Of a DNA stretch of 64,000 nt, positions 57,491 to 60,527 are shown piece by piece. The notes beneath the pieces were generated by a model. That model was not told the DNA's origin, searched no databases, and was given only the letters and a program-made list of their open reading frames with translations. This DNA comes from Prescottella agglutinans (GTDB lineage: Bacteria; Actinomycetota; Actinomycetes; Mycobacteriales; Mycobacteriaceae): the NCBI RefSeq assembly GCF_004011865.1, contig NZ_RKLP01000007.1:248001-312000 (forward strand). Reading direction: 5' to 3'. The translations under genes and the position numbers were made by a program. The number at the start of each line of letters is the position of its first letter. The stretch's first letter is position 1.

Positions 57491-58009
57491 TCAGCTGTCG
57501 CGGTGGTTCATCACGATGTGCCGGTCGATCCGCACGTGCTCGTCCAACGTCGGATACCGCAAGCCTGTGTCGCGGCCGTAATCGTGGTGTCGTAGCCAGG
57601 CGTACACGTCGCCCCACAGCCAGATGCCCCCTGAGACGGTGTTGAACGGGACGGGGAACGGCGTCCCGCGTTGACGCACCCCGCGCACCCACTGCCCCAC
57701 CGCCTGCCGGGTCACCCCGGCACGATCGGCAATGTCCTGGCGCGTCACCAGATCCGGGTGGGTGCGCAGTGGCCGGACGCCCTCGGTCACCAACTGGTCG
57801 ACCAGGCTCATGCCCGCCGTCGCGCACCGCATTCCCTCGGTCGTCACCGTCAGCAACTGCAGTCCGCCGTGGTCGTCGACGCGGCCGTCGAACCCCGCCT
57901 CGACCGCAGCCTCCCGCGAGACCGTCATCAGCGGAACGATGAACGTGAACTCGAAGCGGTGGTAGATCTCGTGCACCCGCTCAACATAGCGTCTACGTGG
58001 ATCTCGCAC
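57491..58009 (-). CDS. HTH DNA-binding protein
   Basis: 172 residues from GTG 58009; a GTG at 57976 with a -10-like TATGTT placed for a leaderless start is an alternative, giving 161 residues. A helix-turn-helix is clear at about 88-110 (VTRQDIADRAGVTRQAVGQWV), followed by an aromatic wing with IWLWGDVYAWLR as in AlpA/excisionase-type proteins. The N-terminal 80 residues contain a VHEIYHRFEFTF stretch. The start overlaps the last codons of tnpB by 17 bp; the gene may be what the element landed beside. Confidence 0.7.
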   Translation of the reverse strand: MRDPRRRYVERVHEIYHRFEFTFIVPLMTVSREAAVEAGFDGRVDDHGGLQLLTVTTEGMRCATAGMSLVDQLVTEGVRPLRTHPDLVTRQDIADRAGVTRQAVGQWVRGVRQRGTPFPVPFNTVSGGIWLWGDVYAWLRHHDYGRDTGLRYPTLDEHVRIDRHIVMNHRDS

Positions 58010-59804
58010 TCTCTACCACTGGTGTGGCGGGCGGTGGAGTTCCGTGTGTGTCACGGCTACCCGTGTCGCAACGTGGCGCTGCGGGTTTGACCGTGTCCCA
58101 CACCGACGCTTGGGGTGCAGGAACAGGGTTGTTGGGTTTCACCCCCGCCCGGTGCGTGTTGAGGTGAAGGCTACGGCGGACGCGGCGGTGTCGCGGCCGG
58201 GCCGGTGTGGGCTGGTTCTTGTCCCGGCTCTTGCGGACCGGGGCGTGTTCGGCCACCCGGATCGCAGGCAGATGGCCGGGGCGCCGGACGATCCTGCCTC
58301 GGCCGAGGAGGACACGTTTGGCGAGGTTCACCCCGGCGACGTGATCACGGTTGCCGTGCAGGCCGCAGGGCCCGCACCGGGCGGTGTGGTAGCCGCCGGG
58401 TCGGGTGAGTTCCTCGTTGCAGCCCGGACACAGGGCGGACGAGCCGCGGGCGGGCACCGTGACCACCTCGATCCCCGCACCGGCGGCGGTGTGCGCGAGC
58501 GCGGCGACGGCCTTGCGGCGAGCCGATTGGGCTGCCCGATTGTTGTTGCCCCGCCCACGATTCTTCGGTTCGAGGGTGGCGAGATCCTCGACGGCGATCA
58601 CGCGCGCGCCGACGGTGGTGGCGTGGTCGGTGACCTGGCGGGCAAAGTGAAACGCCAACTCCCGGTTGATCTTCGCCCGTTTGACGCCAACCGCGGTCCG
58701 ATTGCCGTCGAGGACCGCAATCTTCGCTTCCAACCGGGCCCGCACCTCCGGCGGCGCGGTGGCGGCGAGCCTTGCCAGGCATGCGGCCTTGCGGTGCAGC
58801 AACTGGCCTTCGGCCTGCAGCCGCGCGAGCTTCACGCCCAGGCCGCGGTCGTCGTAGGTCCATCCTCGATAGGTCGACGACAACCCGCCAGGGCCGTCGG
58901 CCGCGATCGCGGTGGCACCGAGGGTGGACGGGGACCAGTCGACCCCGACCGCGACCAACCCGGCAGCAGCGTCGGCGGCGGGCACGGATTCGGTCGCCGC
59001 GCACCGCAGCAGCAGGCCCCGGTGATCGAGCGTGAGAGTCGGCAGGTGCCAGTCGGTAACCGCCCGCACGCACAGATGAGCGGGGACAGCGGCGGTCAGG
59101 CGGACCCACCGCCACCCGGACCGCCCCTGCGGCGCCGGAGACGTCGGGAGTTTGACCGTCAACACCAGCTCGCCGCCCGTCACGGCGAGCTGCGCGAACT
59201 GCTTGTCCGTCGCGGACAGGCGAGCCATCGCCGCCACCTGCGGCGGACCCTGGACATCGGTGATCCTCAGCCGTCCTACCCCCTCGCCGACGGCGCCGTC
59301 GCGTGCGCGGGTGGCGAGCTGGCGGCGAACACCGCGCGCGAAGCCCGACGGCACGTGATCGCTCACATTGTCTGGTGGGGCGATGCGGCCGGTGACCGGA
59401 TCGAAGCGGGCGGACAGTGACACGATCGCGGCGTCCCGGAACGCCAGGGTTCGCAACGTCGACACGACCTGGGCGGTCACCATCCGGGTCACCCGCGACG
59501 GCGCATACACCCCGTCCGGATACCGTGGGGTCCAGCCGAGACGCGCCGCGGCGACATGCCCCTGCGCGGGCAGCCTCCGGTCCTGTCGGTCCAGCCCCGC
59601 GGCGAGCACATCGAACGTGACCGGATGCCACAACCGTTCAAGCAGCTCCGCACCGGCCGCGGCCACCAGGTCCAGCAGCCACCCAACCCGGACATCGACA
59701 TCGTCGAGGCCCACCGGCTCACCGGTCACGCCATCCACCGCAGCATGCGGGCGGGTGCTGAACGAAAACTGTCGGGACACAGCCAGATCCGCAGAAATGT
59801 TCAA
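57993..59804 (-). CDS. tnpB: TnpB, RNA-guided RuvC-type nuclease (IS607-type)
   Basis: 603 residues, longer than the usual 400 or so. The RuvC triad is complete: Asp289 in VAVGVDWS, Glu406 in VIAVEDLA and Asp487 in GNRDHVAGVN. The zinc ribbon has Cys459/Cys462 (CPGC) and Cys477/Cys480 (CGPC). Residues 1-280 form the RNA/DNA-binding wedge and REC-type part. The last 100 (from about 500) are Arg/Pro-rich, with no conserved pattern, and probably only overlap the guide-RNA region. TnpB cuts DNA at sites matching a guide copied from the element's edge. The recombinase gene upstream is ruined, so this is an orphan. Confidence 0.9.
   Translation of the reverse strand: MNISADLAVSRQFSFSTRPHAAVDGVTGEPVGLDDVDVRVGWLLDLVAAAGAELLERLWHPVTFDVLAAGLDRQDRRLPAQGHVAAARLGWTPRYPDGVYAPSRVTRMVTAQVVSTLRTLAFRDAAIVSLSARFDPVTGRIAPPDNVSDHVPSGFARGVRRQLATRARDGAVGEGVGRLRITDVQGPPQVAAMARLSATDKQFAQLAVTGGELVLTVKLPTSPAPQGRSGWRWVRLTAAVPAHLCVRAVTDWHLPTLTLDHRGLLLRCAATESVPAADAAAGLVAVGVDWSPSTLGATAIAADGPGGLSSTYRGWTYDDRGLGVKLARLQAEGQLLHRKAACLARLAATAPPEVRARLEAKIAVLDGNRTAVGVKRAKINRELAFHFARQVTDHATTVGARVIAVEDLATLEPKNRGRGNNNRAAQSARRKAVAALAHTAAGAGIEVVTVPARGSSALCPGCNEELTRPGGYHTARCGPCGLHGNRDHVAGVNLAKRVLLGRGRIVRRPGHLPAIRVAEHAPVRKSRDKNQPTPARPRHRRVRRSLHLNTHRAGVKPNNPVPAPQASVWDTVKPAAPRCDTGSRDTHGTPPPATPVVESARST
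58005..58110 (-). ncRNA. Candidate omega RNA (reRNA) scaffold at the 3' end of tnpB
   Basis: Within the 3' end of tnpB, short arms nest neatly: GGTGTGG (58021-58027) pairs with CCACACC (58098-58104); inside it CCGTG/CACGG (58042-58046 with 58052-58056) and ACCCG/CGGGT (58059-58063 with 58082-58086) form two further stems, the latter enclosing CGC/GCG (58067-58069 with 58076-58078). A closed multiloop just at the element edge is what TnpB guide RNAs look like. If the scaffold ends near 58020, the guide would be the minus-strand bases just below it, at the start of the HTH gene. This is a sequence-level proposal only. Confidence 0.35.
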
Positions 59805-60470
59805 TCGGCACCCCTACCCCAACCGGGCCGCAGCGTTATCGAGGAGCCTGCGCTGGTTCTTCGATCGCAGTTGGCAAAAGCGGCCGGAGACCGCCGCCAG
59901 CAACGCCATGAAGTCATCCACCCTCCTCCACCAGCGATGTGTCACCCGAGGTCCCGCAAGACCTCGACAGTAACGCCGACCTGTGACAAGTGGCGCGCGA
60001 TCCACGCCACGCCGAGCCGCGCCAATCGATCCCTCCGCACGACCCGCACCACCGTGAATCGGCCATCAGCCGCGTCGTCGAGCATCCGGTCCGGCCCCGC
60101 ACGCTGCTCCCGCAATCTGGAGCCGCGGTCCTTGTGCACGCGGTATACGGCGCCACTTGCGCTCTCCCGCAGCATCTTCTCCCGAATGGCTAGCGAGGAC
60201 TCTGACCCGTGGACCCCGACGCACCGCAATACAGTGCCTCCACGCGCTCCCGCCTGGCCGACGACGTCAGACTCGCCGCAGGCCTGCCCAGGTAGGCATC
60301 CAGATCCGCGCGATCGAACAACCGATGCCCCGACCCGGCGCGCCGCGACGGTATCAGCCCCCGGTGGCAGCCTTTCGTACCCCCGCGACCGACATCCCCA
60401 GACACTCCGCGGCCTCACCGATTCGCATCCCAGAGTTAGTAGTAGATATTTGGAGGGAGTCTCGGATAAT
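58010..60470 (-). mobile_element. Decayed IS607-type element (tnpA pseudogene + intact tnpB)
   Basis: The element holds a broken serine-recombinase gene (59814-60428) directly upstream of an intact tnpB (57993-59804), the order of IS607-family elements. It separates the Rv1486c-like gene and hemH, which adjoin in M. tuberculosis. The outer limits are approximate: the right end near 58010-58020 next to the HTH gene, the left end somewhere before hemH. IS607 elements make no target duplication and lack terminal inverted repeats, so the ends cannot be read directly. Confidence 0.8.
59814..60428 (-). pseudogene. Frameshifted IS607-type serine recombinase (TnpA)
   Basis: Reading from ATG 60428 and changing frame, a whole IS607 TnpA can be followed: a MerR-like HTH (MRIGEAAECLGMSVAGVRKAATG), a frameshift at about 60360, LIPSRRAGSGHRLFDRADLDAYL, the catalytic-Ser region ALYCGASGSTGQ (usual RVS is GAS), a second shift, then the resolvase core (ESSLAIREKMLRE, VVRRDRLARLGV) and, after a further shift near 59950, the C-terminal ALLAAVSGRFCQLRSK. 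At least three frameshifts and an altered active site leave it dead. It ends 9 bp before the tnpB start. Confidence 0.85.
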
Positions 60471-60527
60471 CTGCTGACAGTGGAAACCCCGCCGCACTGT
60501 TTCCCTCCGGAAGCACACGCGGGCCGG

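Follow-up and report, generated by a model that had tools for sequence, protein, structure and literature searches.

The stretch of Prescottella agglutinans DNA analysed here (contig NZ_RKLP01000007.1, positions 248,001 to 312,000 of the forward strand; 64,000 nucleotides, hereafter the window) carries an IS607-type element of approximately 2.5 kb on the minus strand (57988..60488), in which an open tnpB gene, related to known RNA-guided nucleases, lies beside the remnant of tnpA, the gene for the IS607 serine recombinase; the question addressed is what role TnpB plays in elements without a transposase. The boundaries of the element, fixed against unoccupied sites of the same genus and against the right and left ends of relatives, lie outside the span of 57993 to 60470 assigned to the element when the sequence was first read (the original prediction): the true ends are at 57988 (right) and near 60488 (left). 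At the left junction (60486..60490, minus strand, placed by our own reading) the window copy has GGGT where relatives mostly have GGCT.

The tnpB gene (57993..59804, minus strand) is open for 603 codons with no stop and encodes the RuvC residues D289, E406 and D487 and the zinc-ribbon cysteines C459, C462, C477 and C480, exactly as predicted; none of the seven varies in any of 33 open copies, among them the window copy. The protein matches Pfam PF07282 at 38.7 bits (cut-off 26.3) and is, judged by its sequence, a member of a divergent branch of TnpB of approximately 600 residues. In the 5.4-Mb host genome, where the element lies on the contig that we number C20, tnpB has a single match, itself, and TnpA matches occur at the element locus only, so that a search for full elements elsewhere, which the original prediction had proposed, yields none: no intact TnpA and no helper was found in this genome. 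A second TnpB-type gene on contig C1 (L027), encoding 415 amino acids, is only distantly similar to the tnpB of the element and matches the NCBIfam guided_TnpB model (NF040570) at 185 bits against a cut-off of 100. Among 14 genomes of the genus, tnpB is present in this one and gives no match in the 13 others (one of them 79% complete); the phages searched gave no match.

The tnpA remnant (59820..60428, minus strand) was aligned to the intact TnpA of a related copy, L082 (202 amino acids; 119.1 bits against the IS607 transposase model NF033518, cut-off 110), with which it is identical at 151 of 198 residues. It contains four frame changes (residues 22, 73, 158 and 167) and no internal stop, where at least three frameshifts had been claimed, and the RVS motif reads GAS as reported, the serine being retained and the arginine and valine altered. 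Read codon by codon, the remnant has a ratio of nonsynonymous to synonymous substitution rates (dN/dS) of 0.11 versus L082, 0.20 versus L061 and up to 0.21 versus others, rough values because synonymous divergence is above 1; they suggest that the gene died recently, its old constraint still being visible. No lesion of the window tnpA is clearly common to relatives in the portion listed of an alignment of 27 sequences; each lies at most two residues from a lesion with the same effect on the frame in some other copy, and sharing or recurrence is possible.

At the right end, the core of an RNA scaffold is predicted at 57988..58110 (minus strand), overlapping the 3' end of tnpB; it starts with AGCGTC, complementary to the GACGCT at its end. 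In 50 of 64 copies, among them the window copy, AGCGTC begins at a distance of 123 nucleotides (nt) from the right end, and nearly all copies end with GACGCT (the exceptions are L018 with GACGAT, L024 with GACGTT, and L074, which is without it). Rfam RAGATH-18 gives no match at the right end at its gathering score, nor is it among the three matches with E up to 5 in 57900 to 58400. The predicted guide is the 20 nt directly past the right end (57968..57987, minus strand, read downwards from 57987), and thus consists of flank sequence: the first codons of a small neighbouring gene with weak helix-turn-helix matches (57491..57976, minus strand; start codon by our own reading), the element being inserted between this gene and a ferrochelatase gene. 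Of the 13 other genomes of the genus, 12 contain a match to the small gene, weak in two cases (E 1e-4 or worse); ten loci of the gene in other genomes of the genus lack the element, and at about half of the ten the upstream sequence also aligns, by eye, with the end of the ferrochelatase gene. Nucleotides 1 to 16 of the guide have their sole exact genomic match in their own flank, and matches with at most three mismatches number 78, versus 97 for a control pattern.

Unoccupied alleles suggest a target motif. In the nearest unoccupied allele of 38 relatives, the five bases before the guide are AGGCT in 23 cases, GGGCT in five, CGGCT in three, GGACT in two, AGACT in two and others in three, so that NGGCT precedes the guide at 31 of the 38 sister sites, a tally somewhat biased by a junction search that favoured places preceded by CT. 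Insertion produces no target duplication beyond a shared GCT, and with unoccupied sites reading mostly (A/G)GGCT before the guide it took place in the G-rich context expected of IS607; the Helicobacter IS607 recombinase exchanges strands over a GG dinucleotide, according to PMC6188088, whereas the core here looks like GCT. A single substitution separates the element's own right end, ACGCT, from the target motif AGGCT, and one unoccupied allele (L227) also reads ACGCT.

The condition of the window copy is typical of its family. A search of 301 genomes of the family, in which the best four candidates were scored per genome, matched 25; the species genomes hold 22 loci, distributed among Rhodococcus jostii (8), a metagenome-assembled Rhodococcus genome (6), R. 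opacus (4), R. koreensis (2) and others (2). When all candidates were scored in one genome (G289), 11 tnpB places were found, each aligned over at least 580 residues, two of which (L145 and L146) have a frame change near the tnpB C-terminus. With the intact TnpA as query, 14 of 23 genomes matched; only in G177 does a match run full length without interruption, and the remaining TnpA matches of at least 180 residues all hold at least one stop. Lesions average 3.5 per copy in tnpA versus 0.82 in tnpB (62 copies with both sides), and an intact tnpA accompanies none of the 37 complete copies with a clean tnpB (window copy included), in a census that is biased towards open tnpB, copies having been located through that gene. 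The orphan state of TnpB on which the original prediction was built is therefore real, but it is not unusual.

Selection on tnpB after the death of tnpA can be assessed in relatives that share a tnpA lesion. A frame lesion of the +1 type at TnpA residues 135 to 139 occurs in 32 of 74 copies, and in nine disjoint pairs that share it and have a clean tnpB, the pooled ratio of nonsynonymous to synonymous differences (pN/pS) is 0.91 for tnpA (bootstrap 0.82 to 0.99) and 0.32 for tnpB (bootstrap 0.30 to 0.33). Near-neutral change in tnpA beside constraint in tnpB indicates that tnpB remained constrained after tnpA died. Programmed frameshifting at residue 138 was considered and is disfavoured, given that most such copies carry further lesions and that the pooled pN/pS is near 1. 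Two near-identical plasmid copies, L061 (Mycolicibacterium TY81) and L025 (TY66), differ by one G in a run at this site; the site may be a mutational hot spot, and shared position is no proof of shared descent. The window copy is without this lesion, and in the tnpB tree, rooted at its midpoint, it diverges ahead of the other Rhodococcus-type copies. Its tnpB has a dN/dS of 0.24 to 0.28 in the 12 pairs listed, which says little about the time since tnpA died because that death was seemingly recent; the proposed comparison of dN/dS after tnpA decay is accordingly informative in pairs of relatives, while the window value mostly predates the loss. The distribution of lesions in the window copy, four in 0.6 kb of tnpA and none in 1.8 kb of tnpB (probability approximately 0.004 if evenly spread), is modest evidence. 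Selective maintenance of tnpB, one of three explanations offered originally, thus holds for the family and not for the window copy taken alone; mobilisation in trans, another, is plausible for the relatives, given the 32 of 74 copies with the lesion at 135 to 139, but finds no helper in the genome of the window copy.

Between approximately the start of tnpB and the exact right end, three copies in genome G229 (L033, L057 and L064) agree at 97%; their upstream sequences and guides differ, a pattern resembling homogenisation of tnpB and the scaffold by gene conversion. Divergence in tnpA and in tnpB is correlated at only 0.26 over 338 pairs. Six copies (L065, L018, L007, L042, L012 and L015) have in common a block of approximately 0.4 to 0.9 kb that lies upstream of tnpB, with 90 to 95% identity, which is perhaps another insertion nested in tnpA.

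Comparison of right flanks beside insertions with unoccupied sister alleles reveals scars, that is, deletions or complex indels whose element-side edge lies at approximately guide nt 12 to 22, in 16 of 39 resolved copies, the window copy included, with sizes from 1 nt to 7.6 kb. In the window copy, the candidate scar (57967..57969, minus strand) is a net loss of 3 nt at guide nt 19 to 23 relative to unoccupied alleles, which we read as approximately 5 nt replaced by 2; the net loss of 3, with its edge at nt 19 or 21, is found in seven of seven alleles measured, from ten retrieved. The other scars are those of L033 (1 nt), L144 (3 nt), L149 (5 nt), L008 (6 nt), L066 (8 nt), L079 (9 nt), L073 (11 nt), L018 (17 nt), L139 (24 nt), L007 (26 nt), L065 (28 nt), L140 (49 nt), L148 (195 nt), L006 (2.4 kb) and L056 (7.6 kb). 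Beside L056, 7.6 kb present in the sister alleles L303 and L304 is missing from approximately 17 nt past the right end. Indels of at least 3 nt, with split gaps of one scar merged, number 15 at guide nt 12 to 22 (11 called by a gapped aligner, three large ones by eye, and that of the window copy) versus eight at nt 23 to 200. Left flanks serve as a control: in the 20 copies whose alignment stops no more than 12 nt short of or past the junction, 3876 bases contain two indels of at least 3 nt, and in the eight of 15 scarred relatives that are among these copies, insertion is precise on the left, the flank running up to the junction.

The 39 resolved copies are 38 relatives and the window copy. 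From 54 distinct flanks queried (28 and 35, nine in both; the best 10 and 25 candidates scored per genome), 120 stretches, part of the matches listed, were compared; a comparison allele was obtained for 42 copies and the junction was placed in 38, leaving L017, L153, L155 and L157 unplaced and uncounted. The survey excluded copies whose tnpB alignment stops before residue 540 and ten copies without the right-end motif, of which L148 was re-added by hand. Counted as unscarred were L019 (one allele, with a 1-nt change), L011 (doubtful junction) and L071 (its allele flagged as occupied by the motif test, and kept), and the same-site pairs L067/L009 and L018/L065 were counted separately.

Paired sites bear on the order of events. 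L149 and L003 occupy one site, with element and flanks 87.5 to 89.5% alike, and the scar is present in L149 only; L144 is scarred, and L252 retains at that site an element remnant whose flank is unscarred; L018 and L065 have a common site and derived junction, and in L065 another 11 bases, starting at nt 19, are missing. Provided that each pair descends from one insertion, the pairs suggest that the scars post-date insertion, and at the time of the additional loss in L065 the guide would have matched the occupied flank alone. Both points favour cutting of the occupied allele.

We therefore consider it probable that this is a non-autonomous IS607-type element with a dead recombinase, whose TnpB-omegaRNA nuclease is retained by selection and makes occasional cuts next to the element's right end, which end joining repairs with a scar in the flank. 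With the flank behind the right end supplying its guide, TnpB would cut unoccupied alleles, and the element would be copied back or kept in a homing-like manner. Given the single-base difference between ACGCT at the right end and AGGCT, TnpB would sometimes also cut the occupied chromosome 16 to 22 nt from the right end, and end joining, generally attributed to Ku/LigD in such hosts, would leave scars that run away from the element. That loss runs outward may reflect protection of the motif-side end or the survival of those elements whose right end stayed intact. Each repair would rewrite the guide to the new flank, so that the match between nuclease and element edge is preserved and renewed cutting is possible. 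The stronger proposition, that the element is a self-re-arming cutter whose right end mimics the motif, whose outward end-joining deletions start from approximately nt 12 to 22 and whose repaired edge becomes the new target, seems to us evenly balanced between true and false. The scars suggest a cutter active in nature, the cutting itself being a prediction.

Several observations weigh against this explanation. A scaffold fold computed from 58 sequences shows little covariation, with two of its pairs broken in the window copy; the TnpB scores 35.5 bits against NF040570, below the cut-off of 100, with its best stretch at residues 384 to 497. Twenty-three of the 39 resolved copies have no scar, and scarring shows no clear link with the state of tnpB (13 of 29 copies with a clean gene, three of ten with a broken one). 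Edges depend on the method: a single-gap fit shifts those of L139, L065 and L018 to nt 43 to 59, that of L033 to 45 to 50 (another gap), that of L140 to nt 30, that of L144 to 27, that of L008 to 20 to 25 and that of L056 to 21, and where methods disagree the gapped alignment or the printed bases were used. The clustering of indels at nt 12 to 22 has a binomial probability of 4e-14 (5e-13 if the L018/L065 site is counted once, with 14 of 22 indels), a post hoc value for a range noticed before testing; the range nevertheless matches the cuts published for the IS607 TnpB of ISFba1, which is guided by a RAGATH-18-derived RNA and, in the accessible text of PMC11061315, cuts mostly at 16 nt (non-target strand) and 22 nt (target strand). 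The same text reports that ISFba1, whose motif is AGGAG, no longer cut in vitro once any one base of that motif was altered; cutting at ACGCT needs tolerance of one base, against which the ISFba1 result speaks unless the present branch is more tolerant.

The scars might instead date from the arrival of the element: TnpB would have cut an unoccupied allele, the element would have been copied in from the left, and the right end would have been closed by end joining with a scar. This fits a homing role of TnpB, likewise places the scar near the cut site, and agrees with left flanks that run up to the junction in the eight of 15 scarred relatives in which they could be assessed. Copying from a donor should, however, pass the cut by varying lengths, whereas most edges lie within about ten bases, and the loss in L065, if it came from an L018-like state (an order that we infer), occurred when the guide matched only an occupied and already scarred flank; we regard this account as unlikely, though not negligible. 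Less probable still is that the window holds an ordinary dead IS607 copy, in which tnpB is open through recent arrival and the small flank indel is due to chance. For the window copy alone this is allowed by the old constraint and seemingly recent death of tnpA, by the presence of the element in one genome among its 14 congeners and by the weakness of a single 3-nt indel; at the level of the family it is opposed by constraint on tnpB after tnpA death and by scars clustered in 15 further copies. Deletion of flanks by TnpA itself in faulty insertion would explain why the losses adjoin insertions, but they start approximately 12 to 22 nt from the end rather than at it, and the paired sites suggest that some scars post-date insertion, which makes this very improbable. 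Takeover of TnpB by the host as an RNA-guided regulator resembling TldR, which the guide's position over the initial codons of a neighbour weakly matching helix-turn-helix domains could suggest and which the original prediction had raised as re-use by the host, is highly implausible and unsupported, the RuvC triad being intact, the guide having no exact match beyond its own flank and no excess of near matches over the control pattern, and the element being patchy among genomes, with one of 14 in the genus.

If retention with occasional cutting beside the element is the correct explanation, cut-site scars are a natural, sequence-readable record of chromosome cutting by TnpB in the wild, of the place of the cut and of repair by the host; they would also supply a motif and a cut position for an uncharacterised branch of 600-residue TnpBs, and would imply that an occupied site is not always safe. 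A self-re-arming element, if such it is, would record its own activity and erode its neighbourhood stepwise, by 7.6 kb in L056 and apparently in two steps in L065/L018. New here are the comparison of insertions with unoccupied sister sites and the scars of the right flank; we recognised no report of such scars in the open-licence literature searched, a scope outside which subscription literature mostly falls.

Homing endonucleases provide one precedent, the nuclease being kept by cutting alleles that do not contain its gene; unlike theirs, the target here is read from the flank through a predicted guide RNA and changes with the flank. Like TldRs, the TnpB-derived RNA-guided transcription factors, as far as the available account of them extends, the gene in the window is a TnpB descendant without a transposase. 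TldRs are nuclease-dead, whereas here the nuclease residues are intact and the genome offers the guide no other exact target, and the locus does not qualify as a TldR. A model of TnpB retention, or gene drive, was reportedly advanced by Meers in 2023. In the retention model as set out in the accessible part of PMC11870625, the nuclease cuts the element-free allele and promotes copying or fixation, which is how we suppose TnpB to act here; the excision junction is the ideal substrate in that model, whereas here occupied alleles carry candidate cut-site scars, and the words NHEJ, scar, deletion and end joining are absent from the main text of PMC11870625. ISFba1 differs from the present element in its TnpB of approximately 390 amino acids versus 603 here and in the RAGATH-18 relationship of its RNA, for which Rfam gives no match here; genomic scars are present here and none is described for ISFba1 in the accessible text of PMC11061315. 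In its main features the window copy nevertheless resembles ISFba1: a TnpB beside an IS607 recombinase, a right-end RNA (predicted here), a motif of the AGG type and broken TnpA partners, the same text of PMC11061315 classing 30% of the TnpAs of two-gene IS607 loci as pseudogenes.

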